A DNA stretch of 64,000 nt from Brevibacterium jeotgali. Its GTDB lineage: Bacteria > Actinomycetota > Actinomycetes > Actinomycetales > Brevibacteriaceae. Position numbers and translations under genes: made by a program. The stretch spans positions 1 through 64,000 of the forward strand of contig NZ_FXZM01000011.1 of assembly GCF_900169175.1 (NCBI RefSeq). Reading direction: 5' to 3'. This document shows positions 1 through 40,119 of this stretch, piece by piece; position 1 is the stretch's first letter; every line of letters starts with the position of its first letter. Below the pieces are notes generated by a model, which saw only the letters and a program-made list of their open reading frames with translations, ran no database searches and was not told the DNA's origin.

Positions 1-905
1 AAAGTAGGGTGGGACATGTCGAGGTCTTCCGGATGGGCAGTGTAGGAACTTCCATCTTCAGGGAGACCTCGACTCCTACACGGACAGCGACGCGCTCAAC
101 GGACTACACCCTCGTTCGAGAAGAGCCATTTTCGCCCCTGTGGCGGACTGACTGTGGAGAGTGCACTGCGGGCGCTGTCCTCCGGTGGTCGCCACTACGT
201 CTTCCGATTCGCGTCAGGCGACGTACCACGTTCCCCGGCCACCATCGTCGTGCTTCGGAACTGACCAGTCATCGGCATCGACGGGTCGCGCGACGGGGGG
301 CGCCCGAGGGCGGCGCGGAGCTGCCGAAGGACCTCTTCCAACACATCGAGGCTGGTTAGCCGACTCCTCGTCAACCGTCGGTCGCCGGACTCGACGATGC
401 GGATCGGGTCCTCACACCGATCCCTGATGGACGTGCGCGGAGGGTCCCAGTCCGGGCGAGCCGTAACACTCGATCTGCGGCTCATACCCGTAGCCGCAGG
501 CAAGGGGTACAGGCCGCCCAGCCCATCCTTCGCTATCGAGAGATCCGGACGATAGAGGCCCCTGTATGAGCATCTCAGTGCCGATCGGTTCGGACATGTC
601 GATGTCTTCAAGGACGAATCCTTGTCCAGCATCATTGGTGCCTGAAGCGCTCACCTCGGTGATTCTTCATTCACACTCAAGTTCTGAACTCCGAACCAAG
701 CACGATTGCGGCGGACTGCAGAAGCCGGAAGCGTCCTTGTCTCAGCAAGTTCTTCTTCCTCAAAGGCTGGTCTGAGTGGTGGACAATACATGCTCCCGCC
801 AGTAGCCCGGCCAACAGCGCCGCGAAAACCCCACTCACTCTCCCGATCACGCTGCCGGAAGCAAGGTGGTCGCGGGCTGTATGACCGGTCACGCGGTTCT
901 CATGA
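1..905. other. Gene-poor left end with possible mobile-element remnant
   Basis: No reading frame in this stretch has a convincing start, ribosome site and protein-like sequence together. Positions 40-47 and 74-81 are an inverted repeat (GTGTAGGA / TCCTACAC), so the first 100 bases could fold. The style of the sequence recalls the non-coding end of an insertion sequence, but I cannot confirm a family. Positions 555-654 hold a decayed dehydrogenase N-terminus, listed separately. A GTG-started minus frame at 677-892 has one hydrophobic segment but no ribosome site and is not called. Confidence 0.4.
555..654 (-). pseudogene. N-terminal fragment of a zinc-type alcohol dehydrogenase
   Basis: Read from 654 downward, the frame contains FVLEDIDMSEPIGTEMLIQ, which matches the first beta strands of MDR-family alcohol dehydrogenases (pattern F.LEDI.L..P...E.L). 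The similarity stops abruptly near 555: the expected Cys-His-Ser-Asp zinc-ligand segment never appears and the frame runs on into unrelated residues. It is therefore a broken relic of a second alcohol dehydrogenase lying just beyond the intact one at 906-2006. The two N-termini differ clearly, so it is not a simple recent duplication. Recognition rests on a motif of about 20 residues only. Confidence 0.45.
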
Positions 906-2006
906 TCAGAACGCGATGACGTTGCGGGCTACCGTGCCGGTCTTGAGCTCATCGAAACCAGTGTTGATATCAGCGAGAGAGATCGTCCGGGAGACCAGCT
1001 CGTCGAGCTTCAGCCGTCCCTGCAGGTACAGTTCGGCCAACTTCGGGACGTCGACGCGGAAGTTCGACGACCCCATCCAGACGCCTCGCACTCCGTGCTC
1101 GCGCTGCAGGAACGGCCCGCCGACGCCGTCGATGTTCAGGTCGAGCGTCGCACCGGGACGCTGAATGCCCACCAAGTAGGCAGTGCCGTGCGTCGTCAGC
1201 ATTCCTAGTGCCTGCTCAACTGTCGGCACAAGACCAATGACCTCCAAGGCGTGATCCACGCCGAGGCCGCCCGTGATCTCCTTGACTGCCGCGACCGGGT
1301 CCACCTCACCCGCGTGAATGACATCGGTCGCGCCGAAGTCGCGTGCCAACTCCAGTTTGCCCGGCTGCAGGTCGACGGCGATGATCCGCTCAGCACTGGT
1401 GATGCGGGCCATCTGGATGGCGTTGAGGCCGACGCCTCCGCAGCCGATGACCGCGACAGTCTCACCTGAACGGACCCTTGCGGAGTTGCTGATGGCACCA
1501 GCGCCGGTGAGCACGCCGCAGCCCAGCAGCGCGGCCCGATCGAACGGTACCGACTTGTCGATGGCGACGAGCTGGTTCTCATGGATGAGAGCCTGCTCTG
1601 CGAACCCGGCCATGCCAGCTGGCGTCGACACTGCTTCGCCGTTGATGCTCACACGTGGGTTCTCCGTACGGGCGCGGTATAGCTCGCGGCCGTTCCGGCA
1701 CGCATTGAGATAGCCCCGAGCGCAGGCATTGCAGTGCCCACACGACGTGATGAGGCAGGCGACGACGTGGTCACCGACCTGCAGGCCCGCAACATCGGGG
1801 CCGATCTCAGCTACCACTCCCGCGACTTCATGCCCCAGCATGATCGGAGCAGAGAAGCCGAAGTCGTTCTCACCGAGGTGGACATCGCTGTGGCACAGGC
1901 CGACCGCTTTGACATCCACGAGCACTTCGCGGCCGATCGGCGCATCGATGACGGCATCGCCGACGATGAACGGGCTGGCGATTTCGGACAGATATGCGGC
2001 TTTCAT
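906..2006 (-). CDS. Zinc-dependent alcohol dehydrogenase (MDR superfamily)
   Basis: A 366-residue NAD(P)-dependent alcohol dehydrogenase that interconverts an alcohol and its aldehyde in the cytoplasm. The catalytic-zinc motif is visible as Cys38-His-Ser-Asp with His59-Glu60 (GHE). Four structural-zinc cysteines lie at about 89, 92, 95 and 103, and the Rossmann motif GCGGVG is in the middle of the protein. The start at 2006 is chosen over an upstream GTG because AGAGGAA precedes this ATG and the sequence MKAAYL is typical of the family. It is the last gene of the minus-strand catabolic cluster, 129 bases after the enoyl-CoA hydratase, next to an aldehyde dehydrogenase. The likely job is the first oxidation of the imported or derived substrate, or reduction of an aldehyde intermediate. 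Substrate unknown. Confidence 0.9.
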   Translation of the reverse strand: MKAAYLSEIASPFIVGDAVIDAPIGREVLVDVKAVGLCHSDVHLGENDFGFSAPIMLGHEVAGVVAEIGPDVAGLQVGDHVVACLITSCGHCNACARGYLNACRNGRELYRARTENPRVSINGEAVSTPAGMAGFAEQALIHENQLVAIDKSVPFDRAALLGCGVLTGAGAISNSARVRSGETVAVIGCGGVGLNAIQMARITSAERIIAVDLQPGKLELARDFGATDVIHAGEVDPVAAVKEITGGLGVDHALEVIGLVPTVEQALGMLTTHGTAYLVGIQRPGATLDLNIDGVGGPFLQREHGVRGVWMGSSNFRVDVPKLAELYLQGRLKLDELVSRTISLADINTGFDELKTGTVARNVIAF

Positions 2007-2135
2007 GAAGTTCCTCTTTCTGCGGCTGCCCGCCGATGCTGCAGGCCGGTCGTATACACGGATGAATGGTGCGCAAGGCATGTGATCGCCCGTGGAGCCG
2101 GAGTGTTCCGGCTCCACGGGCGGCCTCGTCCCGCC

Positions 2136-3071
2136 TCAATCGATTCGGTCCTTGTCAGGAAAGGACGGGATGAAGTCCGGGTAGTCCTGCGGCACCGTCA
2201 GACTGAACGATGCGGCGCGCTTCTCGAGGAAGGATTCCACGCCTTCGGCCACGTCCGACTGCTGGCCCAGTTCGTAGACCGTGCGCGAATCTACTCGGTG
2301 CGCCTCCCACGGAGAATCCGCCGTGAGCATTCCCCACAACAGTTGCCGGGTCGCTCCCAAAGAAACGGCCGAGGCATTTGCGACGATGTCACGGGCCATC
2401 TCGAGCGCTGTGTCGAGGAGGTTCTCAGGCTCCACGATTCGGGAGATCAGTCCTGCTGCGAGAGCTTCGTCGACGCCGAAGACGCGACCCGTGTACGACC
2501 AATCGAGCGCCCGGCTCACTCCGACGATGCGGGGCAGGAACCAGCTCGAGGCTGCTTCTGGCACGAGCCCACGCCGGACGAAGACGAAACCGAATTTGGC
2601 CTCCGAGGAGGCGATCCGGATGTCCGTGGGAAGGGTGAATGTGGCCCCCACCCCCACAGCAGCGCCGTTGTACGCGGTGATGATCGGCTTACGCAGAGCG
2701 GCGAATGCCAGCGAGACCTGCCCACCGCCGTCCCGTCGGAAGCCGTCGACCAGCTGGACGGGCTCCGCCTGATCACTCTCGACGTTGTTCTCCGATTCGT
2801 AGTCGAATGTCGTTCCGCCAGAAGTCAGGTCAGCGCCGGGGCAGAAGAACCTGCCCTTTCCGGTGAGCACAACGACTCGAACATCATCATCTGAATCGGC
2901 GCGCTGCGCTGCGGCAATGAGCTCGTTGCGCATAGTGCCGTTGAATCCGTTCTTGTTCGTCGGACTGTCGATGGTGATGAGCGCGATATGGTCTGTCACC
3001 TCGAACGCGAGGGTCTCGTAGTCCCCAGTGGCCGACGAGCTCTTCGCTCGGTCCGCATATTCCACACTCAT
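2136..3071 (-). CDS. Enoyl-CoA hydratase/isomerase family protein
   Basis: A 311-residue crotonase-fold protein. The oxyanion-hole segments CPGADL and YNGAAVGVGATF are both present. One acidic catalytic residue is visible in RRGLVPEAASSWFLPR (the second glutamate of the family), while the position often holding the first glutamate is alanine. The family hydrates or isomerises 2-enoyl-CoA thioesters. The ATG at 3071 overlaps the aldehyde dehydrogenase stop (ATGA), implying translational coupling, and a longer GTG start at 3125 is therefore not used. It is slightly longer than the common 255-270 residues because of a charged insert after the first oxyanion strand (residues about 80-110) and an extended tail. 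The exact substrate cannot be read from sequence. Confidence 0.88.
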   Translation of the reverse strand: MSVEYADRAKSSSATGDYETLAFEVTDHIALITIDSPTNKNGFNGTMRNELIAAAQRADSDDDVRVVVLTGKGRFFCPGADLTSGGTTFDYESENNVESDQAEPVQLVDGFRRDGGGQVSLAFAALRKPIITAYNGAAVGVGATFTLPTDIRIASSEAKFGFVFVRRGLVPEAASSWFLPRIVGVSRALDWSYTGRVFGVDEALAAGLISRIVEPENLLDTALEMARDIVANASAVSLGATRQLLWGMLTADSPWEAHRVDSRTVYELGQQSDVAEGVESFLEKRAASFSLTVPQDYPDFIPSFPDKDRID

Positions 3072-4471
3072 GCGTCGTCCTTGACACGTACAAGGCGCTT
3101 GTTGAGGAACTCCTCGATCCCCCACGGCCCCAGCTCACGCCCGAAACCGGAACGCTTGATGCCCCCGAACGGAAGGAACTCCCGCGATTCCTCGACATTA
3201 TTGACGAACACCATTCCAGCGTTGATTTCGTCCCCCACTCGACGGGCACGCTCAACGTCGGTCGAGAACACCGTCGCACCGAGTCCGAAATCTGTGTCGT
3301 TGGCCAGTGCCACCGCCGCGTCGTCGGACTCCACTCTGAAGACGACGAACGCAGGACCGAAGATCTCCTCGCTATAGGCGACAGTGCCAGGCTTCACATC
3401 GACGAGCAGCGTCGGCTCGACGTAGGCGCCTGGTCCCTCGATGTGCCCACCACCGGCGAGCACCGTCGCACCGTCGGCCTCCGCTCGCTCAATCTGATCG
3501 ACGAACGTGTTGGCCGCCTGCTGTGAGGACAGCGGAGCCAGGGTCGTCTCCTTATCTAGCGGATCACCAGCGCTATATTCCAGCACACGCTCACGCAACT
3601 TCTCCACGAACGCGTCGTAGATGTCAGACATGACGATCATCCGCTTCGGACCGTTGCACGCCTGGCCCATATTCATCATCCGGATCTCATACGCCGTGTC
3701 GACGGACTCAGCCACGTCCTCTGAATCAAGAACAAGGTAAGGGTCTGATCCGCCCAGCTCGAGCACGACCTTCTTCAGGTGCTTACCCGCAGATTGCGCG
3801 ACGCTCGCCCCTGCGCCCTCACTGCCAGTGAGGGACACCCCGTGGATCCGAGGGTCGGCGATGATGTCGTCGACCTGCTGGTGCGAAGCGAAGACCTTCA
3901 CATAGGCACCCGTTGGAAGACCCGCCTCAGCGAAGATCTCCTCGATCACGGTCGCCGTACGCGGGCAGCTGTCCGCATGTTTGAGCACGATCGTGTTGCC
4001 CGCCATGAGGTTCGGCGCCGCGAAGCGAACGACCTGATACAAGGGGAAATTCCACGGCATGACACCCAACAGCGCGCCCAGCGGACGCCGCTGCACCACT
4101 GCTGGCAGGGTGCCGAACGTCTCGACGGGCTCATCAGCAAGCATCCGCTCCGCGTGCTCGGCATAGTATTTCATGATCAGTGAGGAGATGATCACCTCGC
4201 CCTTCGCTTCTCGGGCGCGCTTTCCCATTTCTTGAGAGATCGTCTCGACGAGTTCGGGGAGCCGCTCCTTGTAGATCTCCGCGACGCGCGCAATGACTTT
4301 GGCGCGTTCTGCGATCGGAGTCTTCGACCACCCCGTGAAGGCCGAATCCGCTGCGTCTACGGCCTGGGCGACCTGCGCGTCGTCCGCCTTGGCAAACTCT
4401 GCGAGCACTTCACCTGTAGCCGGGTTGATGGAAGCGCTGGTGGGCTGTGTCTGTATCAGACCCGCAGTCAT
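3068..4471 (-). CDS. NAD(P)-dependent aldehyde dehydrogenase, succinate-semialdehyde dehydrogenase-like
   Basis: A 467-residue aldehyde dehydrogenase that oxidises an aldehyde to its acid. It carries the N-terminal signature SINPATGE, the cofactor segment MPWNFPLYQ at about 138-146, the general base Glu238 in VVLELGGSDP and the catalytic Cys272 in NMGQACNGPKR. The order and wording of these motifs resemble the GabD1-type succinate-semialdehyde dehydrogenases of actinobacteria, although the aldehyde used here may differ. The ATG at 4471 follows a G-rich stretch. Its TGA overlaps the next gene's ATG. In context it should act on the aldehyde made by the nearby alcohol dehydrogenase or on a semialdehyde formed late in the pathway. 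Confidence 0.9.
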   Translation of the reverse strand: MTAGLIQTQPTSASINPATGEVLAEFAKADDAQVAQAVDAADSAFTGWSKTPIAERAKVIARVAEIYKERLPELVETISQEMGKRAREAKGEVIISSLIMKYYAEHAERMLADEPVETFGTLPAVVQRRPLGALLGVMPWNFPLYQVVRFAAPNLMAGNTIVLKHADSCPRTATVIEEIFAEAGLPTGAYVKVFASHQQVDDIIADPRIHGVSLTGSEGAGASVAQSAGKHLKKVVLELGGSDPYLVLDSEDVAESVDTAYEIRMMNMGQACNGPKRMIVMSDIYDAFVEKLRERVLEYSAGDPLDKETTLAPLSSQQAANTFVDQIERAEADGATVLAGGGHIEGPGAYVEPTLLVDVKPGTVAYSEEIFGPAFVVFRVESDDAAVALANDTDFGLGATVFSTDVERARRVGDEINAGMVFVNNVEESREFLPFGGIKRSGFGRELGPWGIEEFLNKRLVRVKDDA

Positions 4472-4576
4472 GCCGCCACCCCCGCACGGTTGCACACAAT
4501 CTTCGTGAAAATCGACTTCATCGTCTTTCCTCTATTCTTTCGTGGATGATCTGTTGTAGCGACTCGCTGTCTGCGC

Positions 4577-6151
4577 TTAGTCGCCCATCACGTCACGCAA
4601 CGACCGCTTGAGAATCTTCCCGGCCGCGCTCTTGGGCATTTCGTCGATGAAGCGCACGTGCTTTGGTGCTTTGAAACCAGCTAGCCCACCCTTGCAGTGC
4701 GCGATCACGTCACCGGCTGTGAAGTCGGCGTCCGGATGGCGCACAACGGCCACGGCGACTGCCTCGACCCACTTGGAATCGGCAATGGCCACAGCGGCCA
4801 CCTCGGCAACTCCTGGCAGGTCGTAGATGTGCTCTTCCACCTCTCTCGACGACACCAGCACCCCGCCTGTGTTGATGACGTCCTTGACCCGGTCGACGAC
4901 ATGGATGAAACGGTGCTCGTCCTGCCGGCCCAGGTCACCGGATCGGAACCATTCTCCGACAAACGCGTCCAATGTCGCCTCCGGATCATCCAGGTATCCG
5001 GAGAACAGCTGCGGAGATCTGTAGACGATCTCGCCCACGTCACCTACCTCAACGTCGTTGAAGTCCTCATCGACGATGCGGACATCGACGAACGTGACGG
5101 CCTTTCCGGCGGAAGTCGGTGAGATGTCGTGGCCTTTCGGCCCCAGCACCGTCGTTGTCGGACCGGCCTCTGTCTGACCGAAGACGTTGTAGAACTGCAC
5201 GCCTTCGAAGGTCGCGCGCAACCGAGCAAGGACGGGTGCCGGCATAATCGACGCACCATACTGCAACTTGCACATGCTGCTCAGATCGAACTCCGGTTGA
5301 CGGGAGTCATTGAGGAGGGCGATCCACACCGTCGGCGGCGCAAAGAAATTGTTGATCGAGTGCTTCTCGATGAGTGAGAACACCCGCCCCGGTTCCGGCT
5401 TCTCACTGATGACGACTGTCGCTCCCGCCATGAGCGCAGGCAGCGTGAAGCTATGCATCTGGCCCGCATGGTACAGCGGCAGTGCGGAGAGAACCCGATC
5501 ATCGGCGTGATGGTCGAGAGCGATAGTCGCCGACGCACAGTGGAACGACAGCGCGCTGTGCGACATCATCGCGCCCTTGGGCTTCGACGTCGTACCGGAC
5601 GTGAAGATGATCTGCGCAATGTCGTCACGCTCAACTCGCGCGGGAGTAAACGTAGCGTTCGACCTCGTCGACGTACGCGCAGTCAGGTCTCGCGCTGTCT
5701 CGAGGCCCCGACCGCGATAGATTAGGCGCTGATCCAGCGCCAGGACCTCCGTGCCATTCAACCAGCCGCCGCTTGCCTCGTCATACGCTCTTTCTAGGTC
5801 CACGAGGAACTCAGCGTCATCAGTGAGGATGAGTGACGGTGCCGTGCGGCGGATGAGGTCGACCGCTTCACCCGCTTTGAAGCCGACATTCATTGGGACG
5901 TGCACCGCGCCGAGCCGGAAGCAGGCGAACATCGCGATGATATACAGGTCCGAGTTGGCTCCCCGGACCACCACCCGGCCGCCATGTGCCAGACCACGTG
6001 CGGCGAACTCCATCGCCAGGGACTCGACCGCCTCCGTAAGCTGCGCGTAGGTCCACGTCCGATCGCCGAATACGAGCGCATCCTTGTCCGGGGTACGCCG
6101 GCAGGAGCGAACCAGAATATCGGCAAGGTTCAACTGTGCGTGGTCATGCAT
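4577..6151 (-). CDS. Class I adenylate-forming acyl-CoA synthetase
   Basis: A 524-residue AMP-forming ligase that activates a carboxylic acid to its CoA thioester with ATP. The phosphate loop TSGTTSKPKG is at about 184-193, the FGQTEAGP motif follows in the middle, the hinge region reads RSGDLGRQDE...VDRVKDVI, and the C-terminal catalytic lysine lies in SAAGKILKR. A GTG two codons upstream (6157) is an alternative start; ATG at 6151 is preferred. It is one of two CoA ligases in the same cluster, 32 bases after the CaiC-like one, which suggests two acids are activated or one acid at two stages. The specific acid is not identifiable; medium-chain, aromatic and isoprenoid acids are all possible. 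Confidence 0.9.
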   Translation of the reverse strand: MHDHAQLNLADILVRSCRRTPDKDALVFGDRTWTYAQLTEAVESLAMEFAARGLAHGGRVVVRGANSDLYIIAMFACFRLGAVHVPMNVGFKAGEAVDLIRRTAPSLILTDDAEFLVDLERAYDEASGGWLNGTEVLALDQRLIYRGRGLETARDLTARTSTRSNATFTPARVERDDIAQIIFTSGTTSKPKGAMMSHSALSFHCASATIALDHHADDRVLSALPLYHAGQMHSFTLPALMAGATVVISEKPEPGRVFSLIEKHSINNFFAPPTVWIALLNDSRQPEFDLSSMCKLQYGASIMPAPVLARLRATFEGVQFYNVFGQTEAGPTTTVLGPKGHDISPTSAGKAVTFVDVRIVDEDFNDVEVGDVGEIVYRSPQLFSGYLDDPEATLDAFVGEWFRSGDLGRQDEHRFIHVVDRVKDVINTGGVLVSSREVEEHIYDLPGVAEVAAVAIADSKWVEAVAVAVVRHPDADFTAGDVIAHCKGGLAGFKAPKHVRFIDEMPKSAAGKILKRSLRDVMGD

Positions 6152-6183
6152 TCTCACGAACTCGCTCTCTCATCAAACATCTC

Positions 6184-7848
6184 TCAATTAACGGAATACT
6201 CGAACTGAGCACGCAACTTGTACTTCTCGATCTTGTTCGTCGGGGTTCGAGGAATCTCATCGATCACAGTGATATACCGGGGGCGCATGAATTTTGGCAT
6301 CGTCTCTTCGCAGTATTTCCGGATTGCGTCGACATCAACATCGCCGCCCTGGATATACGCAGCAATATCATCTTCTTCACCCTCGACGCTCGGTACAGCG
6401 ATGACAGCGGCAACTTGGACTTGCTCGTGTTTAGTCAGCATCTCTTCGACGTGATAGCTCGAGATGTTCTCGCCTTTGACTCGCAAGCGACCGCTCATTC
6501 TGTCGACGAAGCGAAAGTATCCATCAGCACCACGACTCGCGGCGTCTCCGGAGTGGAACCACTGGTTCCGAAGTGCAGAAGCCGACGCGTCCGGCTTATT
6601 GATGTACTCATCGAGCAGAATCGCTGGCGCCTTGGAACGAATGACGAGCTCGCCCACCTCATCCGGCGCGCACACCTCATCGCGCTCATTGTGCACCTCG
6701 ACCTCGACGAACGGAGCCGCGGCGCCCATGAAGCCGCGACCTGTCACCGCAGCGGCAGGCAGCACTGGAACTCCTACTTCCTTCAACGTCTCAAGCGTCG
6801 CTGTCGGAACGCCTTCCACCCAGTCCTCGGATTCGCACACCACGACATTGAGGCTCATGCCGGACTCGGTTTGTCCGAACCCTGCCGTCGCGATATTGAT
6901 GCCGAATCGTGCGCAGAACTCTTGGTGGAAGAGGGGCAGCGGCTGCATGTGGACGAGCCGCAGCGTGTTATTACGATCAGCAGGGGATGGCTCGCCCCCC
7001 GACACCCACGGCACCATGACGTCGACGAGCGTCGCCGATGTCGCACCGGAATGAGCGACGCGCTTCCAGAACTCCGTCGTGCTGAACTTGTCCCACAGAC
7101 TCACAGTCGCACCGACCCACCACGCCGCGACGACATTGAACATCGCACCCCCCACGTGGTACATCGGCAGGTCGCAGTAGACGACATCCTCCGATGTGTG
7201 AAGCGATCTGCGCAGCCAGCTGTACTGATTCATCCAGCGATGCGACTGCAGCACCCCCTTGGCGGGTCCCGTCGTGCCGGACGTGTAGATGATGTTTGCT
7301 GGCGTATCAAAGCCCACTTCTACCTGAGGGTCCCTAGCCACCGGCGATTCCAACACGTCGTAATCGCTGGTGGTGAACGTGGAATCACTACCGTCGCTTC
7401 CGTCACCGTCGATGAGGTAGACGCGTGGGACAGCCAAGAGCTGTCCGCGGACAGCTTCCAGTTCGGACAGCAGAGACTTGTCCACGATGATTGCTTCTGC
7501 CTGCAGATCGTTGAGCTGGTAGGCGAGCAGATCCGTCCGGTACGCCGGGTTGATGGGGCTGTATACCATTCCGGCCGTCCAGATCCCGGCCATGGCCTTC
7601 ACCGACACGAACGATTGAGTGGTGTAGACGGCTACCCGGGCACCTATTGGAAGCCCGTCATCCCGGAGATTTACCGCAATCGACCGACGGATTCGTGCAA
7701 GATCGCTGTAAGTGAGGGAGCGTTCCGTGTACCGATAGTCAACTGCGACGGCTTCGGGACAGTCCGCTTCGACTGCTGCCAGCGCCTCGAGAACAGTCGC
7801 ACCGTCCTGTTCGACGACTTTGAGGAAGTTGTTGGTTGAGTGACTCAT
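6184..7848 (-). CDS. AMP-dependent CoA ligase, crotonobetaine/carnitine-CoA ligase (CaiC)-like
   Basis: A 554-residue adenylate-forming ligase. Motifs: TSGTTGPAKG at about 189-198, GFGQTESGMS in the middle, the HSGDAASRGADG...DRMSGRLRVKGENIS hinge region, and TPTNKIEKYKLR with the C-terminal lysine. The ENISSYHVEE wording and the segment before the QTESG motif resemble the CaiC branch (carnitine or crotonobetaine CoA ligases). That branch also includes ligases for other short branched acids, so the name is only a family label. AAAGAGG precedes the ATG. It sits 55 bases downstream of the TRAP permease, so the imported acid is probably its substrate. Confidence 0.88.
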   Translation of the reverse strand: MSHSTNNFLKVVEQDGATVLEALAAVEADCPEAVAVDYRYTERSLTYSDLARIRRSIAVNLRDDGLPIGARVAVYTTQSFVSVKAMAGIWTAGMVYSPINPAYRTDLLAYQLNDLQAEAIIVDKSLLSELEAVRGQLLAVPRVYLIDGDGSDGSDSTFTTSDYDVLESPVARDPQVEVGFDTPANIIYTSGTTGPAKGVLQSHRWMNQYSWLRRSLHTSEDVVYCDLPMYHVGGAMFNVVAAWWVGATVSLWDKFSTTEFWKRVAHSGATSATLVDVMVPWVSGGEPSPADRNNTLRLVHMQPLPLFHQEFCARFGINIATAGFGQTESGMSLNVVVCESEDWVEGVPTATLETLKEVGVPVLPAAAVTGRGFMGAAAPFVEVEVHNERDEVCAPDEVGELVIRSKAPAILLDEYINKPDASASALRNQWFHSGDAASRGADGYFRFVDRMSGRLRVKGENISSYHVEEMLTKHEQVQVAAVIAVPSVEGEEDDIAAYIQGGDVDVDAIRKYCEETMPKFMRPRYITVIDEIPRTPTNKIEKYKLRAQFEYSVN

Positions 7849-7903
7849 GGTCGACTGCCTCTTTCGGATTCGAAGATTTGCAGGAACAGACGAAGCAGAA
7901 CGT

Positions 7904-9355
7904 TCAGTGCTGGATCAGATTGGGCAACCAGAGCGTGATCTCGGGGAAGGCGAACAGGATGGCGATGATGACGACGTCGACGAGCAGAAACGGCAACACC
8001 CCTTTGAACACGGTCTCGACCCTGACGCCGGCCGTACCACTGACCACGTAGCAGGAGAGGCCGACGGGAGGTGACACCAGACCCACCTCGATGAGCTTGA
8101 CAACCAGAATGCCAAACCACACCCCGTCGTAGCCCAGGTCCATGACTACGGGGTACATCAGTGGCATCGCGATCACGAGGATTGAAATGGATTCGAGCCC
8201 CATTCCCATGGGGACCAGAATCGCGAGGAAAATTAGCAGGATGACATACGGTGGAATATCCAATTCGGAAACGTAGTCGGCCAACATGTTCGGCGCACGA
8301 GACGTGATGAGGAAAGCAGACAAGACGGAGGAACCGACGATAATGGAGAATATCATGCTGGTTGTCGAAGCCGTCTCCAGAAGGCCGGACCGAACGTTCT
8401 TCCAGATCTCTCCGAAACCCTGTGATCGAGCCTCCAAAAGCATCATGAGGAATGCGGCGATGGCCCCAATCGCACCGGACTCCGTCGCGGTGAAGATACC
8501 GGAGTAGATTCCGCCGAACACGATCGCGGCAATGATCAGGATCTTGATGAGACCGCGCCACGGCAGATCCCTCAGTCGCTCCGTTGGCGCCTGTGCCTCG
8601 CGGATCTCCTTCTCATCGATGGCGACGAGTGACTCCACAAGGTCTGCTTCAGAGCCTCCCGATTCGGATAGTCGGACAGATGCACCCCGTACCCCTGCTG
8701 CAGTTGCAGCAACCGCATCTGGCGGACCTGTGTTGCTAGCTCCCAGATTCAACCGCTTGGCTACGAAGAACACGTAGGTCATGTACGCGATCGCACTGAG
8801 CAGCCCCGGAATGACACCTGCCGCAAGCATCGCTGCGGTCGACTCTCCCGTCATCACTGAGTAGAAAACGAGAATCACGCTGGGGGGAATCATGACTCCG
8901 AGGGTTCCGGAAATCGCGACGAGACCGCTGGAAAAGGACTTGGGGTAGCCGTAACGGGTCATCTCGCCGATCGACAGCCTTGCCATGGTTGCTGACGTGG
9001 CGACGGAGGACCCGGTAACCGCGGCAAAGCCAGCACACGCCATAACAGTCGCTGCTCCAAGACCGCCCGGAACCTTGCGGAATAGATGGTTGGAGATCTT
9101 ATACACCTGGCTTGCGATCCCCCCATGAACAGCGAAGACCCCGATCATGATGAACGTTGGAATCACGGTGAGCGTGAACACGAAGGTCTCGTCGAACGGA
9201 GCGCTGCCTAAAACTGTTCCCACATACTGCCAATCGTGGAGGAGGAACAGCCCGAACGCGCCAGCGACGGCGAGGGCGTATGCGACCGGAGTTTCAATGG
9301 TCAGCAACAGTAACAACGTCGCTGTGACGACAAGTATGGCGATTAAGGGATCCAC
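7904..9355 (-). CDS. TRAP transporter large permease, DctM subunit
   Basis: A 483-residue integral membrane protein with about 12 hydrophobic segments. It forms the sodium-coupled channel of a tripartite ATP-independent periplasmic transporter with the DctQ and DctP proteins encoded just upstream. Family features visible are IPTFIMIGVFAVHGGIA, AVTGSSVATSATMARLSIGEM and GVMIPPSVILVFYSVMTGES. It is longer than the usual 425-440 residues because of a polar insert of about 60 residues in mid-protein (around NTGPPDAVAATAAGVRG), where subunits normally have a short loop. A GTG at 9472 would add a 39-residue Gly/Arg-rich leader. The GTG at 9355 gives the normal hydrophobic N-terminus MDPLIAILVV and is preferred. 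Confidence 0.9.
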   Translation of the reverse strand: MDPLIAILVVTATLLLLLTIETPVAYALAVAGAFGLFLLHDWQYVGTVLGSAPFDETFVFTLTVIPTFIMIGVFAVHGGIASQVYKISNHLFRKVPGGLGAATVMACAGFAAVTGSSVATSATMARLSIGEMTRYGYPKSFSSGLVAISGTLGVMIPPSVILVFYSVMTGESTAAMLAAGVIPGLLSAIAYMTYVFFVAKRLNLGASNTGPPDAVAATAAGVRGASVRLSESGGSEADLVESLVAIDEKEIREAQAPTERLRDLPWRGLIKILIIAAIVFGGIYSGIFTATESGAIGAIAAFLMMLLEARSQGFGEIWKNVRSGLLETASTTSMIFSIIVGSSVLSAFLITSRAPNMLADYVSELDIPPYVILLIFLAILVPMGMGLESISILVIAMPLMYPVVMDLGYDGVWFGILVVKLIEVGLVSPPVGLSCYVVSGTAGVRVETVFKGVLPFLLVDVVIIAILFAFPEITLWLPNLIQH

Positions 9356-9499
9356 AAAAGTGTGCTTTCTCTTCGCAGCTGAGGTCTGGTCAGCTCTGTG
9401 CTGGTGCCGACCGGACGGGTGGACGTCTGAACCTCCGCCACCGCGTCCGGTCGGATCGTTCGAGCGCCTCACGCGACGCTCGAGCGTTCAGCGATGGGG

Positions 9500-10024
9500 T
9501 CAAATCGCGGTGGCCTCTTCGCGCAACCGTCCACCGCGCACTAACCTCACGAGGTCGCGCAAAAGCTGGATGGCCAACGCCATCAGGCCGACGAACAGAA
9601 CGGCGCGCCACGGTGCGACAGGCCATCGGAGCAGGCCCTGCCGCGTCTCGTTCATGTCGAACGAGTCGAATGCGCGGAGACCAGACTGATACGCCATCCA
9701 CGTGATAATGAGGAGTGCCAACGCGTATGCCACGATCCTCATACCGTGGGCGACGCGGTCCGGGACCCTGTCAGTAACGAGGGTCATCCTCACCTGCGCA
9801 CCCTCCTTCTGGGTGTAAGCCATGCCGAGGAAGACAATCCACACCAGCATCGACTGGTTGAACTCAAGCATCCCCGGGATACTCGCATCAGTGAACTGGC
9901 GCGCGACGACGTCCGTCGTCGTCGTAATCACAAGGATGACGGTCCCGGCAGCAGCGAGAGTGCCCAGTCCTTCTACGAGGCGGTCGAGGACGCGTTCGAA
10001 ACCCGATTTGTGCTGAACGTTCAT
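9500..10024 (-). CDS. TRAP transporter small permease, DctQ subunit
   Basis: A 174-residue membrane protein with four predicted helices, the normal size of a DctQ subunit. The helix pattern is typical of the family: an N-terminal segment ending in TTDVVARQF, then a second helix MLVWIVFLGMAYTQKEGAQVRM, and a C-terminal pair. It is thought to bridge the binding protein and the large permease. GAAGGGAG lies before the ATG at 10024. It is 34 bases after the DctP stop, in the order DctP-DctQ-DctM, so the three form one transport unit. Confidence 0.88.
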   Translation of the reverse strand: MNVQHKSGFERVLDRLVEGLGTLAAAGTVILVITTTTDVVARQFTDASIPGMLEFNQSMLVWIVFLGMAYTQKEGAQVRMTLVTDRVPDRVAHGMRIVAYALALLIITWMAYQSGLRAFDSFDMNETRQGLLRWPVAPWRAVLFVGLMALAIQLLRDLVRLVRGGRLREEATAI

Positions 10025-10058
10025 TCCCAGCTCCCTTCACCCCGAAGGATGAGATCGG

Positions 10059-11165
10059 TCAGACCCTTTCGGAACAGCCGATTGCCGGAGAAACAAAATC
10101 GGAACTCGCTTCTGCTTCTTCGAGGTAAGTGAGGAATTCCTCGCGCAATGCATCCGGATCGTCAACTTTGCCCTCGACATTGCTCTTCCACTCCTCGACC
10201 ACGGTGTCGCCGAGCGCGTTCTCCCACTCATCCGTTGCGGAATCGTCCCAGGTCTCCCAGCTTTCGAGGGTCCCCGCATCAATGACCTTGTCGCACTGCT
10301 CCTGCATCGTCTCAGCCAAGACGTCATACCCGGCGCCCGCATTGAGATCGGTGACCGTCTCGTTGAATATCTGCTGGATATCGTCCGGGAGCGAATCCCA
10401 CGTCTCCTGGTTAATGACCTGAATCACGTTGATGTACGTACCAAAACCAGTGGTGCGCCAGTGCTCCGAGACTTCGAAGAGATTATAGTCAGAACCACCT
10501 GAGATCAAATTGAACCACACATCAATGACGCCGTTCTGCATGGCCTCGTACATTTCGCTCGCGGTGGTGTTCACTGGGCTGGCACCGATAGCCTCGAGAG
10601 CATAGGTCATTCCTTCGCCCGCACTGCGGGATCGCATATTGGCAAGTCCATCGATTCCCTCGATCGGTTCTGTTGCACCAAAGATCGAGACATCGGTCGA
10701 TGTCACCCACAGCTGCTTGAGTCCCATGGACTCACCCTCTGACGCCACTTCCTCGTTCGATTCGAGCAGCTTGGCATATGCCTGCCCGACCGCCTCAGCG
10801 TTCTGGCTCTGGAACGGCATGTTCATAATCTCCGAGATCTCGAACTCACCCGGCTTATAACTAGGGATCGTCGCTCCGATATCGGCTCGCCCATCCCGCA
10901 CGCATTCGGTCGTCTCCGCACCGCTGCACAGCTGCTCCTGGTCGTAGCGTTCGAATTCGACCCGCCCTTCGCTACGCTCCTCGACCTCGTCCAGGAACCA
11001 GTGAAGAACCGCGGACTCAGACGCGTCGATATGGTTGAAGTTAGTGACCGTCAGCTCGAACTCGGCGTCCGAAGCCGATGTTCCACACCCGCTGGCTCCA
11101 AAAGCTAGAGCAACGGCGGCCAGCAATCCCACGGCTCCTCGAGTGTGTCGACGTATATTATTCAT
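10059..11165 (-). CDS. TRAP transporter substrate-binding lipoprotein, DctP family
   Basis: A 368-residue extracytoplasmic solute-binding protein. A basic N-terminus (MNNIRRHTRG), a hydrophobic stretch and the lipobox ASGC at about 24-27 mark it as a lipoprotein anchored on the outer face of the membrane. The body follows the DctP pattern with VRDGRADIGATIPSYKP and the conserved segment NGVIDVWFNLISGG that normally contacts the ligand carboxylate region. GGGAG precedes the ATG. About 168 bases separate it from the thioesterase upstream, so an internal promoter is possible. The ligand is probably a carboxylate, as is usual for the family, but it cannot be named. Confidence 0.9.
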   Translation of the reverse strand: MNNIRRHTRGAVGLLAAVALAFGASGCGTSASDAEFELTVTNFNHIDASESAVLHWFLDEVEERSEGRVEFERYDQEQLCSGAETTECVRDGRADIGATIPSYKPGEFEISEIMNMPFQSQNAEAVGQAYAKLLESNEEVASEGESMGLKQLWVTSTDVSIFGATEPIEGIDGLANMRSRSAGEGMTYALEAIGASPVNTTASEMYEAMQNGVIDVWFNLISGGSDYNLFEVSEHWRTTGFGTYINVIQVINQETWDSLPDDIQQIFNETVTDLNAGAGYDVLAETMQEQCDKVIDAGTLESWETWDDSATDEWENALGDTVVEEWKSNVEGKVDDPDALREEFLTYLEEAEASSDFVSPAIGCSERV

Positions 11166-11333
11166 AGTATCTCCCAGATTGAAACTTCATTGTTTGTACT
11201 TCTGGACCAGACGCTCACTTTTCGACAAGAAAGAGCTTCTGCGTAAGACGCATGCTACGCGCTTGAAATAAGGGGCGGGCGCGACGATTGCAACGCTGCA
11301 TCGACGCAGATTACTGTTCGCTGCTTTATTCAG

Positions 11334-12233
11334 TCAAGCATGACCCACCTTAATCCCCAGCTGTCGAGTTGAAGCCACTCGGCGACCAGAGGAGGTCGTG
11401 ATAGTCCCCCTGGTCTCCACATACCTACCAGAAACGACATGAAGACGATTCGTGCAGGACAACCACTCGCCCGACTCAATCCGCTCGACGAACCGCATGG
11501 AATGCGACAGCGTGACAAATTTCGCGTCATCGTGAAACCACGACACTCCCTGCCCATTCAGAACTGGCTCCAGCGCGGAATCATCTGCTATGTAGCAAAG
11601 CGCCGCTTCGGAGAATGCACGTCCGGGATCGGCCGGTTCGACGACACGAGTCCAATTCTCTGACCCGCCGAAACGGCTCTCCGTTAGGTCTCCACTTTCA
11701 CAGGTCGCGAACGGCGGCTTAGTGATGTAACGAACGTCCAAACCGCGTGTGGCTGCGTAGTAAGTACGGTAACTGTCGGGCAGGTTTTCGAGTTCGGCAT
11801 CCGCGATCGAAGGAATATCACCCGGCTCTGTTCGCGGCGCCTCGTGACTGGGTGGCATCACGACCGGTACGTCAGTCGCGGCCGAGTCAGTTTCGTACAC
11901 GAGTATCGCTGTGAGCTTCTCCGACCCCGCTTGGTCCAGCGTGACACGGATGTGTCTGAGCGACCGACCTTCACGAACGGTCTCGGTGGACGCACTGACC
12001 TCACCGAGGGGATCGGAGGCGCGGAGGAACTCGAAGTTTGCGGAAATGAGCCGGCCCAGCTTCCGCCCATGTCGGGCGGCACCGATGCAGTGGCTCATGA
12101 GATCACCCCCGTATGCCCCGGTCCACGGGGTCGGCGTGCCTCGGAAGACCAGTCCCTCACGTCCGCTGACCGGTGTCATTGCACGCCGGATGGGTGCGTT
12201 CGGCGGCGTCTCGTCCAGCATCGCTTCAGACAT
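11334..12233 (-). CDS. Acyl-CoA thioesterase, double hotdog (TesB-like) family
   Basis: A 299-residue protein with the features of the two-hotdog acyl-CoA thioesterases that hydrolyse CoA thioesters. The segment GAYGGDLMSHCIGAARHG resembles the family's G..GG...A..L.AA helix, followed by SANFEFLRASDPLGEVSASTETVREGRS, the usual R.G+S strand-turn. A second similar half ends in FVTLSHSMRFVE. The ATG at 12233 overlaps the end of the carboxylase by 8 bases and has AGAAGGAG before it; longer versions only read the carboxylase in another frame. It may release a product acid or rescue CoA from a dead-end thioester. Assignment to a substrate is not possible. Confidence 0.75.
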   Translation of the reverse strand: MSEAMLDETPPNAPIRRAMTPVSGREGLVFRGTPTPWTGAYGGDLMSHCIGAARHGRKLGRLISANFEFLRASDPLGEVSASTETVREGRSLRHIRVTLDQAGSEKLTAILVYETDSAATDVPVVMPPSHEAPRTEPGDIPSIADAELENLPDSYRTYYAATRGLDVRYITKPPFATCESGDLTESRFGGSENWTRVVEPADPGRAFSEAALCYIADDSALEPVLNGQGVSWFHDDAKFVTLSHSMRFVERIESGEWLSCTNRLHVVSGRYVETRGTITTSSGRRVASTRQLGIKVGHA

Positions 12234-15200
12234 GCAGCGACTCCTTCTCTGCGTGACCCGGGGACGCCGTGGAGTGTCGAAACGTGCGAATGATGAATGC
12301 ACGAGTTTCAGCGGGGTCGATGACATCGTCGATCTCATACGCCTGGGCCATGCGGATTGCTTTTCCGTCCTCGTAGGCCTTCGCGACGAGCTCGTCGTAC
12401 TTCGCCTTCTGTGCAATAGGATCGGCGATCGCTTCGAGCTCCTGTCGGAAGCCCAGCTGTACACTTCCCTCGAGCCCCATAGCACCGAACTCTCCAGTAG
12501 GCCAGCTCACGGTCATAGTGGTGGCCCGGAAGCTGCCGGCCGCCATGGATACCGCTCCAAGCCCGTACCCCTTGCGCAGGATGATGGTGATCATCGGTGA
12601 GCTCACGCCGGCGCCGGCAACAAAATACTCACCGAAAGCACGCACAGCGCCGGATTCCTCCGATGCAGGCCCCACCATGAAACCGGGAGTGTCGCAGAGG
12701 GACACGATAGGGATATCGTGGCTGCCGCAGATCCGCAAGAAGCGCGTCGCCTTGATCGCAGCCTCAGTATCGATCGCCCCGCCCAGGTGCAGCGGATTGT
12801 TTGCGACTATGCCGACGGTCTGCCCCTCGATCCGAGCGAGGCTCGTGACGATTCCTCGTCCGTATTGGGGTCGGAGTTCCATCACGGTTCCGACATCGGC
12901 GAGCCCGTCGATGACCTCTCGCACCTCATACGCACGCAACCGGTCCTCGGGGATGATGTGCCGCAGGGCTCGCTGGTCCCCCGCCGCGAAGGTATCGATC
13001 TTGGGCACTGTGAGTAGCTCGAGGAGCTCCTGCGCCGCGTCGATCGCCGCCGCATCGTCCTCGACGAGGACATCCACGACACCGTTTTTGACCTGCGTAT
13101 CCATAGGACCCACTTCGTCCGGGTGGTACGTGCCCAGCCCTCCCCCCTCGATCATCGCGGGGCCTCCCATACCCAGACTGGTGTCCTTCGTCGCGATCGT
13201 GAAGTCGCAGACCGCAGCCAGCGCGGCATTGCCTGCGAAGCAGTATCCGGACACCACTGCGATCGTCGGGACCTTGCCGCTGAGCTCGGCAGCGAGGTGG
13301 AACGTGGGCAAATCCAGCAGCGCGATCTGCACAGTGTCTGTCTCGCCGGGCCGACCGCCGCCGCCTTCGGCAAAGACCACGAGCGGCAGTCGGTTCTTTC
13401 GCGCGAGGTGATACATCCGGTCGGTCTTGCGATGGCTCTGGACGCCTTGCGTGCCTGCCATCACAGTGAAGTCGTAGGAGAGCAGGGCGACATCGCGGTC
13501 ACGCACGGTGGCGACTCCGGTGACCAGTCCGTCAGCAGGTGACCGGTTCACCAGCTCTTCACGCGACTTCCTCTGAGCCTGAGCAGCAACGGCCAATGCT
13601 CCGTACTCGACGAAGGACCCATCGTCGACGAACCGGTCGACGGCCTCTCGAGCAGTCATGCGATTCCGCTGTCGCCGCTTCGCCACTGCATCGGGACGAT
13701 ACTCGTCAAGCCCGATGTTGTGGACGTCGATCACTGACTGGAGGTCGGGTCGAATGTAGTCCGGATCGGTGATACTGCTTTCCTCGATCGTCGCGCCGAC
13801 AGAGCCGTCCGCCCGGACTGCGGCGATCACCTGCGTGGCGTCGACAGCATCGCCGGCCTCTACATAGATATCAGCCACGACACCGGCAGCAGGAGCAACC
13901 ACGGTCTGCTCCATCTTCATTGCTTCGATTACTGCGATCGTCGCGCCAGCGGCGACCTCGTCACCCGCCGTCACAAGCACATTTACGACAACGCCCACCT
14001 GCGGTGATTCGACTGAATCCGTACCCGGGGGAATGTCGACCGATCCTATGTGCGCCTGCTCTTCGACCGTGGACGAAGCTGCGAGGCGACACGAGTTCAA
14101 TACCGCATCTTCATGCTCCGAGGACTCAGCGAGAGCCGCTGCGAGTTCATCATCGAGATATGCGGTCGTCAGCGTGCCGTCAAAGACTGCATGTGTGGCA
14201 AGAAGCGCGCGAGTCAGCGGCAAGGTTGTCTGCACGCCGCGGATGTAGAAGTCCGCCGCCGCGCGGTATGCAGCGTTTCGGAGAGCACTGAAGTCCGAAT
14301 CCGGCACTGACACGATCAGCTTGGCCAATAGGGAATCGTACCGACTGCCGACTGAATAGCCTTCGTACGCATGGGTGTCGACGCGGATGCCTCGACCAGT
14401 CGGTGGCTCGAAGCTGGTCAGCATTCCACCGGAGGGGGTCACTGCGCCGTCTTCTGCCAAGAGTTCGCTGTTGACCCGCATCTGGACTGCGGTCCCACGA
14501 GGCGTGATCTCGGCCGGAATGTGCAAGTCTGCCAGCGTGTCGCCGCAAGCCACCGAAACGCCCAGGTGGACCAGGTCCAGTCCCGTGACCTGCTCTGTCA
14601 CCGTGTGCTCGACCTGGATACGTGGATTCACCTCGAGGAAGACGATGTCCTCCCCTGTGACGAGGAACTCCACCGTTGCAAGACCGCGGTACGCGACTTC
14701 AGACGTCACGCGACGAGCGGAGTCGTGAAGGGCACTTCGAGTCTGGGTCGACAAACCGGGCGCCGGCGCGATCTCGACGAGCTTCTGACGATTGCGCTGG
14801 AGACTGCAGTCGCGGTCCCCCAGCACGCCGACGGCCCCGGTGCCATCACCGAGGATCTGCACCTCGATGTGCCGCGCGTTTGCGATGAGCTCTTCAACAT
14901 AGACATCGCCATTGCCGAACGACCGTAACGCTTCCGACGTACAACGATCGTACGCGTCGCTCAGCTCAGCCTCGTCCATGACGACCCTGATGCCCTTGCC
15001 GCCACCGCCGGCCATGGCCTTCACCATCACGCCGCTGCCGCGGGGCAGCGAACGCATGAATGCGGCGGCTTCGTCCAAGTTCGTCTTTTCGCGGGTGGCG
15101 CGCGCCACCGGGACGCCCACCCCTTCCGCCAACTGCCGTGCCGACGTCTTGCTTCCAAGCTGCAGCAGAACGTCGGCCGTCGGCCCCACGAATTCGATCC

Positions 15201-15501
15201 CGGCATCGTGGCACGCTGCGGAGAATTCGGCATTCTCTGCAAGGAACCCATATCCGGGATGGATTAGGGTGCACCGCATTGAGGTGGCTATAGCGAGCAC
15301 GGCTTCGACGTCGAGGTAGGCGGAGGGCCCGCTCCCCTGTAGTTCGACTGAGTGGTCCGCAGCGGTCACGTGGGCAGACGCACGATCGTCTGCCGCGAAG
15401 ATCGCAACCGTCTCGATCCCCATATAAGCGGCAGTCGAAGCGATCCGTTTTGCAATCTCGCCCCGGTTCGCAATGAGCATGCGCTGGGCACCGTGCATCA
15501 T
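12226..15501 (-). CDS. Single-chain biotin-dependent acyl-CoA carboxylase (BC-BCCP-CT)
   Basis: A 1,091-residue enzyme carrying all parts of an acyl-CoA carboxylase in one chain. Biotin carboxylase occupies about 1-450 (IANRGEIAKRI, the Gly-rich ATP-grasp loop AMAGGGGKGIRV at about 163-173, EVNPRIQVEHTVTEQ at about 290-304). A biotinyl domain follows with the EAMKMEQ motif and biotin-accepting Lys529. A carboxyltransferase domain fills about 600-1080 (GGGGRPGETD; NNPLHLGGAID; CDTPGFMVGP). It fixes bicarbonate onto an acyl- or enoyl-CoA. Actinobacteria more often split these domains over two or more proteins. The single-chain form resembles long-chain or geranyl-type carboxylases described in mycobacteria and pseudomonads. 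GGGGGA precedes the ATG at 15501. It heads the cluster and has candidate TetR operators 230 bases upstream. Confidence 0.92.
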   Translation of the reverse strand: MMHGAQRMLIANRGEIAKRIASTAAYMGIETVAIFAADDRASAHVTAADHSVELQGSGPSAYLDVEAVLAIATSMRCTLIHPGYGFLAENAEFSAACHDAGIEFVGPTADVLLQLGSKTSARQLAEGVGVPVARATREKTNLDEAAAFMRSLPRGSGVMVKAMAGGGGKGIRVVMDEAELSDAYDRCTSEALRSFGNGDVYVEELIANARHIEVQILGDGTGAVGVLGDRDCSLQRNRQKLVEIAPAPGLSTQTRSALHDSARRVTSEVAYRGLATVEFLVTGEDIVFLEVNPRIQVEHTVTEQVTGLDLVHLGVSVACGDTLADLHIPAEITPRGTAVQMRVNSELLAEDGAVTPSGGMLTSFEPPTGRGIRVDTHAYEGYSVGSRYDSLLAKLIVSVPDSDFSALRNAAYRAAADFYIRGVQTTLPLTRALLATHAVFDGTLTTAYLDDELAAALAESSEHEDAVLNSCRLAASSTVEEQAHIGSVDIPPGTDSVESPQVGVVVNVLVTAGDEVAAGATIAVIEAMKMEQTVVAPAAGVVADIYVEAGDAVDATQVIAAVRADGSVGATIEESSITDPDYIRPDLQSVIDVHNIGLDEYRPDAVAKRRQRNRMTAREAVDRFVDDGSFVEYGALAVAAQAQRKSREELVNRSPADGLVTGVATVRDRDVALLSYDFTVMAGTQGVQSHRKTDRMYHLARKNRLPLVVFAEGGGGRPGETDTVQIALLDLPTFHLAAELSGKVPTIAVVSGYCFAGNAALAAVCDFTIATKDTSLGMGGPAMIEGGGLGTYHPDEVGPMDTQVKNGVVDVLVEDDAAAIDAAQELLELLTVPKIDTFAAGDQRALRHIIPEDRLRAYEVREVIDGLADVGTVMELRPQYGRGIVTSLARIEGQTVGIVANNPLHLGGAIDTEAAIKATRFLRICGSHDIPIVSLCDTPGFMVGPASEESGAVRAFGEYFVAGAGVSSPMITIILRKGYGLGAVSMAAGSFRATTMTVSWPTGEFGAMGLEGSVQLGFRQELEAIADPIAQKAKYDELVAKAYEDGKAIRMAQAYEIDDVIDPAETRAFIIRTFRHSTASPGHAEKESLHV

Positions 15502-16314
15502 GACTGTCCCCCACCCGTTAGATCTGCTCGGAACTCCACATTTGAACAACTGTTCACTTTCAGCGCGATCGCCGCCCTTCTGCCCTTAGTTGCGGATTAC
15601 TGGCTCTCCGGGGCAACCTCGCGCCCCCGCCGCAATCAGCGAACCCTGTACCTGTGACCGCACGCTCGTCGGGCGGGAGTCCAGATGCACGCTTGCGTCA
15701 TTGCAGCGTCTCGCGTTCACAGTAGCTCTGGCTGACGGAGTCGTCAACCACTTCTGACAGATTCGTCAATCGCTTTTGACGACTCCGTCAACGTGACTCA
15801 ATCCGGCCGATCCTCACCGTCGTGGAACCCCAGCGCCGCGCCGCCGCATCCCCTCGACGCACAGAGGACGATTCCGCCGTGGCACCCTCAGAACGCATAG
15901 AGAGCCAGCCGGCAGCCGGCTGGCTCAGCACAATCCCGGCCGCAGGACGACCCACGGAGTGACCCAGAAGGCAGACACGCAGCTGCCCCGGCGTGGCGCC
16001 CCGATCGGGCACCACGCGCAACCAATCCGTCCAGGGCGCACCCAATAGTTGGCAGATCCAGGCGATGATCGCGTGGACGACGACGGCGTCGTGGTTGATC
16101 AGAGCATGTCCGTCGCAGCGAGTGGCGAGCCCGCGCGACCCCTTGACGTGGCCGCAGCCTCCATCATCCTGCGGATGCCCGAGGACGGTCGACGCGACCT
16201 GCCGGTGTCGCGTGGCAGGATGTCCTCGATCAGCGACAAAGGGTCATCCGGCAGCAACCAAAACGTGGCGTGCGCCATCGCCTCTGGCGCGGCACACGGG
16301 TGATTGTCAGTCAC
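15502..16314. other. Intergenic region between carboxylase and TetR gene
   Basis: No intact gene. The part nearest the carboxylase (15502-15800) is the promoter region and holds the double palindrome annotated separately. The minus strand from about 16314 to 15788 reads as two adjoining open frames with protein-like stretches (ATFWLLPDDPLSLIEDILP, then GHALINHDAVVVHAIIAWI) that would need a frame change near 16105 to join. This looks like a decayed gene, but I do not recognise the family. Confidence 0.4.
15732..15791. promoter_or_regulatory. Double palindromic operator upstream of the carboxylase cluster
   Basis: Positions 15733-15747 (TGACGGAGTCGTCAA) are the exact reverse complement of 15776-15790, giving a perfect 15-base inverted repeat around a 28-base spacer. 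Each arm is itself a near-palindrome of the form TTGACG-N4-CGTCAA (15776-15791 is complete; 15732-15747 has C for the first T). Between them, TCGTCAA at 15763-15769 adds a further half-site. The layout fits two dimers of a TetR-type repressor. A third copy lies before the TetR gene. Confidence 0.6.
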
Positions 16315-17022
16315 CTAATTGCGCGGATCGGCCTCGGCCCACGAATCGCCCTCGACTTGCACTGCGGACATCGCATCAATCCCCGCAAGGTCACCGGTGA
16401 ATCCAATGAGGGCGAAGAAGACGCGAGTCGCCTGGTCGACGAAGTAATCGAACCTCTCCGGACTGTCCCGAGCCGCCGTCGCCGCATCGAGAAGCACTGC
16501 ACGCATGAGCCTGGCGGAGTAGTCCTCCGAGACCGAGGGCTTCGCCAACCCCTCTTCACGCAGTCGCACCATAAATCGCAGGATCCGTCGGGCCGGCCTG
16601 TCGACCATCTCCGCCTGCAACGCAGCAACGGTCGAATCAGCGTGCGCTCGCTTCGCGATCTCGTCCAAGATCGCGACGTTTCTCGAGTAGAGATCGACGA
16701 ATGCCTCCGTCGACGCACGGGCAAGCATGAGAGGTTCATCCGCGATCTGGCCAGTGAAGTGGTGCGCTTCGAGCACTTCGTCTCGCAACTGGGATGTCAC
16801 GACGCGGAACATCTCCGACTTGGTCGCAAAGTACACATAGAAGGTCGCGCGGGACACGTCGGCCCGAGTCGTTATCTCGCCGATTGTGGTCCCTCCGAAA
16901 CCCTCTTCGGAGAAGACCCTCCGCGCGGCAGTGATCAGCGCGCTCTTTGTTTCAGACTCCACGTCTCTGCGGATGTCGCGCGCATTCGTCCACCCCGCAT
17001 CGCGCATCGGCCGCGATTTCAT
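16315..17022 (-). CDS. TetR family transcriptional regulator
   Basis: A 235-residue repressor. The N-terminal helix-turn-helix is clear at about 30-75 (ALITAARRVFSEEGFGG, then TTIGEITTRADVSRATFYVYF), followed by an all-helical ligand-binding domain of normal length. The ATG at 17022 has GGAGG eight bases ahead; the frame continues upstream but without protein-like sequence. It is the nearest regulator to the catabolic cluster and is transcribed in the same direction. A copy of the palindrome found before the carboxylase lies about 270 bases upstream of this start. I infer it represses the cluster and itself and responds to a pathway metabolite, perhaps an acyl-CoA. Confidence 0.88.
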   Translation of the reverse strand: MKSRPMRDAGWTNARDIRRDVESETKSALITAARRVFSEEGFGGTTIGEITTRADVSRATFYVYFATKSEMFRVVTSQLRDEVLEAHHFTGQIADEPLMLARASTEAFVDLYSRNVAILDEIAKRAHADSTVAALQAEMVDRPARRILRFMVRLREEGLAKPSVSEDYSARLMRAVLLDAATAARDSPERFDYFVDQATRVFFALIGFTGDLAGIDAMSAVQVEGDSWAEADPRN

Positions 17023-40099: not shown

Positions 40100-40119
40100 T
40101 CGGCCGATACCGGAGTCAT

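Follow-up and report, generated by a model that had tools for sequence, protein, structure and literature searches.

A ten-gene unit at positions 906–15501 of the window (the whole 64,000-nucleotide stretch of Brevibacterium jeotgali DNA analysed) appears to be a catabolic operon, gained by horizontal transfer and repressed by TetR, whose core is the pair of a single-chain long-chain-type acyl-CoA carboxylase (LCC) and a CoA ligase; it would serve import, oxidation, CoA activation and carboxylation. We give this reading somewhat more than even weight and consider a peripheral catabolic route the most likely role of the genes.

Layout and gene content of the operon

All ten genes lie on the minus strand, from the carboxylase (start 15501) to the alcohol dehydrogenase (ADH; stop 906), in the common direction given in the original prediction, and strong family matches in Pfam and NCBIfam (Table 1) confirm every gene name given there. 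The TRAP transporter is present with DctP, DctQ and DctM. The ADH is kin to NDMA-/mycothiol-dependent ADHs; its start has GAGG upstream, and an alternative earlier start is possible at 2117.

Table 1. Coordinates of the operon genes, the regulator gene, the promoter-like sites and the contig-end repeat.
Feature	Position	Strand	Evidence or remark
Contig end, repeat terminus	1..127	.	Exact match to C18 and C42, partly C35
Zinc alcohol dehydrogenase (ADH)	906..2006	-	Pfam ADH_N/ADH_zinc_N; TIGR03989 296 bits, below cutoff 440
Crotonase-family protein, PRK08260 subfamily	2136..3071	-	NF006109 378.6 bits, above cutoff 320
Aldehyde dehydrogenase (ALDH), succinate-semialdehyde-dehydrogenase-like	3068..4495	-	Pfam Aldedh 449 bits; NF006915 479 bits, below cutoff 730
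AMP-forming acyl-CoA ligase 1, PRK08316-like	4577..6157	-	Pfam AMP-binding 278 bits; NF006182 600 bits, cutoff 663
AMP-forming acyl-CoA ligase 2	6184..7848	-	Pfam AMP-binding 175 bits
TRAP large permease DctM	7904..9472	-	TIGR00786 286 bits, above cutoff 268; exact start uncertain
TRAP small permease DctQ	9500..10024	-	Pfam DctQ 83 bits
TRAP solute-binding protein DctP	10059..11165	-	Pfam DctP 118 bits; NF037995 above cutoff
TesB-type double-hotdog acyl-CoA thioesterase	11334..12233	-	Pfam 4HBT_3 and 4HBT_3C
Single-chain long-chain-type acyl-CoA carboxylase (LCC), BC-BCCP-CT, 1091 aa	12226..15501	-	4RCN alignment, Pfam domains, motifs
Putative LCC promoter, TTGACG-17-TACTGT	15719..15747	-	Predicted from sequence; first hexamer within the nearest operator
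TetR-family repressor, proposed regulator	16315..17022	-	Pfam TetR_N; RBS GGAGG
Promoter-like site before the TetR gene, TTGACA-17-GATTAT	17307-17279	-	Overlain by the fourth palindrome

The junctions are tight: the LCC and TesB genes overlap by 8 nt, the ALDH and crotonase genes by 4 nt, and the remaining gaps are 26–168 nt, the widest lying between the TesB and DctP genes. No terminator-like site was found in this 168-nt gap, so a single transcript is likely; nor does the gap hold an operator-like palindrome, with one mismatch allowed. Co-expression of the genes is likely given the tight spacing and the TetR operators described below. The same gap, as the largest in the run, could instead separate two co-directional neighbors, an LCC-TesB unit under TetR and a distinct TRAP-ligase-ALDH-crotonase-ADH catabolic operon starting at 11165, and most relatives do have LCC, ligase and TetR genes without TRAP, ADH or ALDH genes. 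Besides the lack of a palindrome or terminator in the gap, a low GC3 common to both halves and the position in the second half of ligase 2, the type paired with LCC elsewhere, speak against this arrangement, which we regard as unlikely.

The unit extends past 15501, as the TetR gene and operators to about 17310 also belong to it. The 17.3–25 kb stretch (DAO, GntR/FCD, DctP2, fused CaiB, NMO) was rejected as part of the operon, having ordinary G+C and no operator beyond 17307. At 20891–24675, a gene for a 905-residue protein that joins two CoA-transferase family III domains is followed by a nitronate-monooxygenase-like gene; plasmids of Pseudonocardia and Rhodococcus (L172, L175) carry genes for long CoA-transferases resembling this fusion protein in the vicinity of TRAP genes. 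The window also holds members of a DctP-type family (about 33–40% identical) at 19596–20945 and 47260–48552; others are found at L106, L107, L111 and L113, mostly without an adjacent permease set, and the family adjoins an LCC in four cases. With about 18 DctP-family genes in 3.3 Mb, the genome is that of a very TRAP-rich Brevibacterium. Positions 38900–50654, with a second TRAP set (41371–44369) between two FAD-dependent (DAO) oxidoreductases, a PucR-type regulator, and then DctP and amidase genes, are probably another catabolic unit.

Aligned to E. coli TesB, whose catalytic residues are Asp204, Thr228 and Gln278, the thioesterase retains the catalytic Asp, Thr and Gln. When the crotonase is aligned to PaaF and PaaG of E. 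coli, Phe replaces the Glu of the PaaF FGLPE motif, the catalytic hydratase residue, and Glu stands in place of PaaG Asp136. A Rhodococcus crotonase homologue has the same Phe/Glu pattern. The pattern suggests an isomerase-type enzyme (perhaps a double-bond isomerase) or an unusual reaction, and falls short of proving the loss of hydration. The enoyl-CoA hydratase of the original prediction is a crotonase-family protein whose hydratase activity is doubtful with Phe in place of the classical Glu. By inspection, DctP carries an Arg in the part of the sequence that binds the carboxylate in TRAP binding proteins; its PDB relatives did not fix a ligand.

The carboxylase class and the predicted TetR operators

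Residues 24–1088 of the LCC (P0001) align with residues 5–1071 of PDB 4RCN (1052 bits), and the protein also aligns with the carboxyltransferase part of 5FIF. The biotinyl Lys529 in EAMKM and the motifs GGGGKG, HIEVQ, VNPRIQVEHTVTE and GPAMIEGGG are all present. Judged by sequence, the enzyme is a member of the LCC class, a known class of single-chain BC-BCCP-CT carboxylases, and the differing architecture noted in the original prediction is not new. According to PMC6491548 (citing Tran et al., 2015), LCC is active on C2 to C16 acyl-CoAs, with a Km far lower for palmitoyl-CoA. Since known LCCs accept this whole range, assignment to the class leaves the substrate unfixed. The structure and promiscuous activity of LCC have already been described.

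We rejected the possibility that this is the housekeeping acetyl/propionyl-CoA carboxylase of the organism, an outcome that would have spoken against the original prediction. The genome has five more carboxyltransferase loci, at C6, C37 and C14 and in two LCCs at C4 and C20, together with a BC-BCCP chain at C6, and the nearest LCCs in other Brevibacterium species are only 45–50% identical to that of the window. The LCC operon at C4 includes three acyl-CoA dehydrogenases, two short-chain dehydrogenases, a thiolase and a ligase. As had been noted before, the ten genes of the window operon encode neither an acyl-CoA dehydrogenase nor a lyase or thiolase; the presence of acyl-CoA dehydrogenases and a thiolase in the sister operon makes their absence here less strange.

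Three TTGACN6GTCA(A/G) palindromes lie before the LCC gene at an exact 22-bp spacing (15732–15747, 15754–15769 and 15776–15791), and a fourth (17292–17307) lies before the TetR gene. The operator pattern has six strand-matches in the window, where 0.22 are expected, and none of 100 shuffles reached six. Elsewhere in the genome the strict pattern occurs in two places, in a surface-protein-like gene and in a permease-like gene (short-contig end).

The TGAC-N6-GTCA motif was first found in the window and then tested at other loci. The window TetR is 52–58% identical to the TetRs adjoining other Brevibacterium LCCs, and TGACN6GTCA occurs directly before the LCC gene or its ligase gene at all six further Brevibacterium LCC loci that have a related TetR and at none of the 11 that lack one (Fisher p = 8e-5). 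The six are not fully independent: they come from related species, and one of them is another LCC of the genome that holds the window. Three of the 11 are short contigs from which a regulator was possibly cut off; with these omitted, the counts are 6/6 and 0/8 (p about 3e-4). The more distant loci L144 and L160 also carry TGAC-N6-GTCA sites. We propose that the palindromes are operators of the TetR protein, placed before the regulator gene and its target and conserved with the regulator.

The second LCC-ligase-TetR unit of the same genome (L102; C20, 46.8–52.7 kb) has a pair of TGAC-N6-GTCA sites, spaced by 35 bp, in front of its LCC. Near the LCC-ligase-TetR units of L115 and L116, palindromes 23 bp apart (19091/19114 and 367/390, respectively) precede an oligopeptide-type solute-binding protein gene, so the regulon there may include a peptide-type ABC transporter.

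Relatives in other genomes and origin of the operon

The LCC and an AMP-forming CoA ligase are a recurrent pair. At 34 of 51 full-LCC loci overall and at 17/17 in Brevibacterium, the LCC gene has a ligase gene no more than about 6.5 kb away, against a chance rate of about 15% (from 40 AMP-binding hits in the 3.3-Mb genome). Ligase 2 of the window is 43–46% identical to the LCC-adjoining ligases of L102, L115, L116 and Marinobacter. Within the same distance at the 51 loci, TetR genes were found 13 times, a TRAP component five times and an ALDH once; by the queries used, ADH and TesB genes were found at none (0/51 each).

Searches with the thioesterase did not recover the full cluster elsewhere in the genus or class, and the parallels are partial: the LCC-ligase-TetR loci and a region of the Rhodococcus opacus PD630 plasmid pRoPD630_1 (NZ_CP080955.1). 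That region encodes a PaaI thioesterase, an AMP ligase, an NDMA-type ADH, an ALDH, an HpaB-family protein, CaiB, a further AMP ligase, an LCC, a TetR and an MFS transporter, with TGAC-N6-GTCA before the ADH gene, a two-chain carboxylase and a third ligase. Identity to the window proteins is 38% for the ADH, 37% for the ALDH, about 30–32% for the ligases and 50.5% for the LCC. In a tree of LCCs, the window enzyme groups with those of R. opacus and G372 in a single clade (SH-aLRT 99, by a quick method without bootstrap). When plasmids were searched with TesB, DctP, DctM, ligase and crotonase, only partial parallels emerged.

The operon looks acquired, and near an insertion sequence: its GC3 is low, its thioesterase is without a close relative, and its left edge is at an ISL3-type repeat. 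GC3 is 0.65–0.78 in the operon, atypical beside a mean of 0.853 (sd 0.054) for 94 ORFs taken from eight stretches elsewhere in the genome. At E<=1e-30 the thioesterase had itself as sole match in 394 class genomes, and its relatives within the genus (57 Brevibacterium genomes) are only about 25–33% identical, with the best match at about 29%. An ISL3-family transposase adjoins the C42 copy of the repeat, and bases 128–905 contain no recognisable gene. Because base 1 of the window is the contig end, inside the repeat, genes past the left edge are out of view, and the cluster can no longer be called complete.

Proposed route and comparison with known systems

The route would begin with uptake of a carboxylate ligand by the TRAP transporter, while the ADH and ALDH would oxidise the corresponding alcohol through the aldehyde to the acid. 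The ligases would form the acyl-CoA, which the LCC would carboxylate to a 2-carboxyacyl-CoA, and the crotonase, with unlinked beta-oxidation or lyase enzymes, would carry the route onward. The TesB thioesterase might release CoA from dead-end intermediates. TetR would bind TGAC-N6-GTCA and let go when acyl-CoA or the substrate builds up. What the sequence itself shows is the gene set and its order, the class of the LCC, the catalytic motifs, the palindromes with their link to this type of TetR, the recurring LCC-ligase pair and the unusual composition; we infer the direction and order of the steps, carboxylation as the committed step, the TetR ligand and the substrate class. Against the preferred reading of an acquired TetR-repressed catabolic operon are the modest likeness to R. 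opacus (30–50% identity, with MFS and PaaI for TRAP and TesB), the rarity of ADH and ALDH genes near LCCs elsewhere, and the missing later steps.

The operon could represent an inducible degradation route not described before, whose committed step, for an imported acid or the corresponding alcohol, would be carboxylation by the LCC; the TetR/TGAC-N6-GTCA regulon would then mark this route across actinobacteria. We put this forward tentatively, as somewhat less than an even chance. The import-activation-carboxylation cluster of the original prediction, which matched no nameable pathway, is upheld to the extent that we could name none, and a literature search found no described cluster matching the operon. 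If the committed-step reading is true, the LCC class gains a physiological role. As the operon links the LCC with a transporter, ligases, ADH/ALDH and a single TetR operator, finding the inducer would be a direct way to the substrate, and the operator motif lets further LCC regulons be listed.

The resemblance to the Atu and Liu pathways noted in the original prediction survives as a loose logic. CoA-level biotin carboxylation and a crotonase are shared with both pathways, and prior alcohol and aldehyde oxidation and CoA activation with Atu. Nothing closer holds: the operon differs in its single-chain LCC-class carboxylase and in its crotonase, whose lack of the usual hydratase Glu weakens the analogy. 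The two-subunit geranyl-CoA carboxylase AtuC/AtuF is not in the cluster, AtuA, acyl-CoA dehydrogenase and lyase have no Pfam match among the ten genes (the contig end bounding the view), and none of the Liu set (two-subunit 3-methylcrotonyl-CoA carboxylase, isovaleryl-CoA dehydrogenase, HMG-CoA lyase) is in the operon. A single-chain replacement of Atu/Liu would oxidise and activate an alcohol of the isoprenoid or methyl-branched kind, carboxylate the enoyl-CoA at its gamma carbon, use the crotonase for hydration and leave cleavage to an unlinked HMG-CoA-lyase-like enzyme; such a route is improbable in our estimation. It would fit the ADH-ALDH-ligase-carboxylase-crotonase order, the HMG-CoA lyase-family gene at C20:124206 (281 bits, above the cutoff of 246) and a Pseudonocardia plasmid on which an AtuA-family gene adjoins a TRAP set related to DctM. 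However, that unlinked lyase gene adjoins a CaiB-type CoA-transferase gene, and the carboxylase is of the LCC class, known (PMC6491548) for activity on saturated acyl-CoAs, rather than a two-subunit MCC/GCC. A role in biosynthesis or lipid tailoring, with the LCC supplying 2-carboxyacyl-CoA extender units that the thioesterase releases, is very improbable: the carboxylase, fatty-acyl ligase and thioesterase resemble acyl activation and carboxylation in lipid synthesis, but no PKS or FAS gene is among the window genes examined, the importer, ADH and ALDH point to catabolism, and no close thioesterase copy was found in the 56 other Brevibacterium genomes searched.

Besides the Atu and Liu pathways, three known systems stand closest to the unit. 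The R. opacus region shares the NDMA-type ADH, ALDH, AMP ligases, a thioesterase, LCC, TetR and TGAC-N6-GTCA sites, but has HpaB-family, CaiB, MFS and two-chain carboxylase genes in addition, PaaI for TesB, and neither TRAP nor crotonase. The six Brevibacterium LCC-ligase-TetR loci (C20 of the same genome; G016, G031, G008, G023 and G027) share LCC, ligase, related TetR and palindrome, whereas their LCCs are only about 35–47% identical and no ADH, ALDH or TesB was found alongside. With the 4RCN enzyme of M. avium subsp. paratuberculosis, the window LCC shares the full-length collinear BC-BCCP-CT chain and its catalytic motifs; it differs in that only about half of its residues are identical and in its setting, an operon with TRAP, TesB, ADH and ALDH. 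The operon elaborates a known class of carboxylase in an unusual way and does not amount to a new kind of system.
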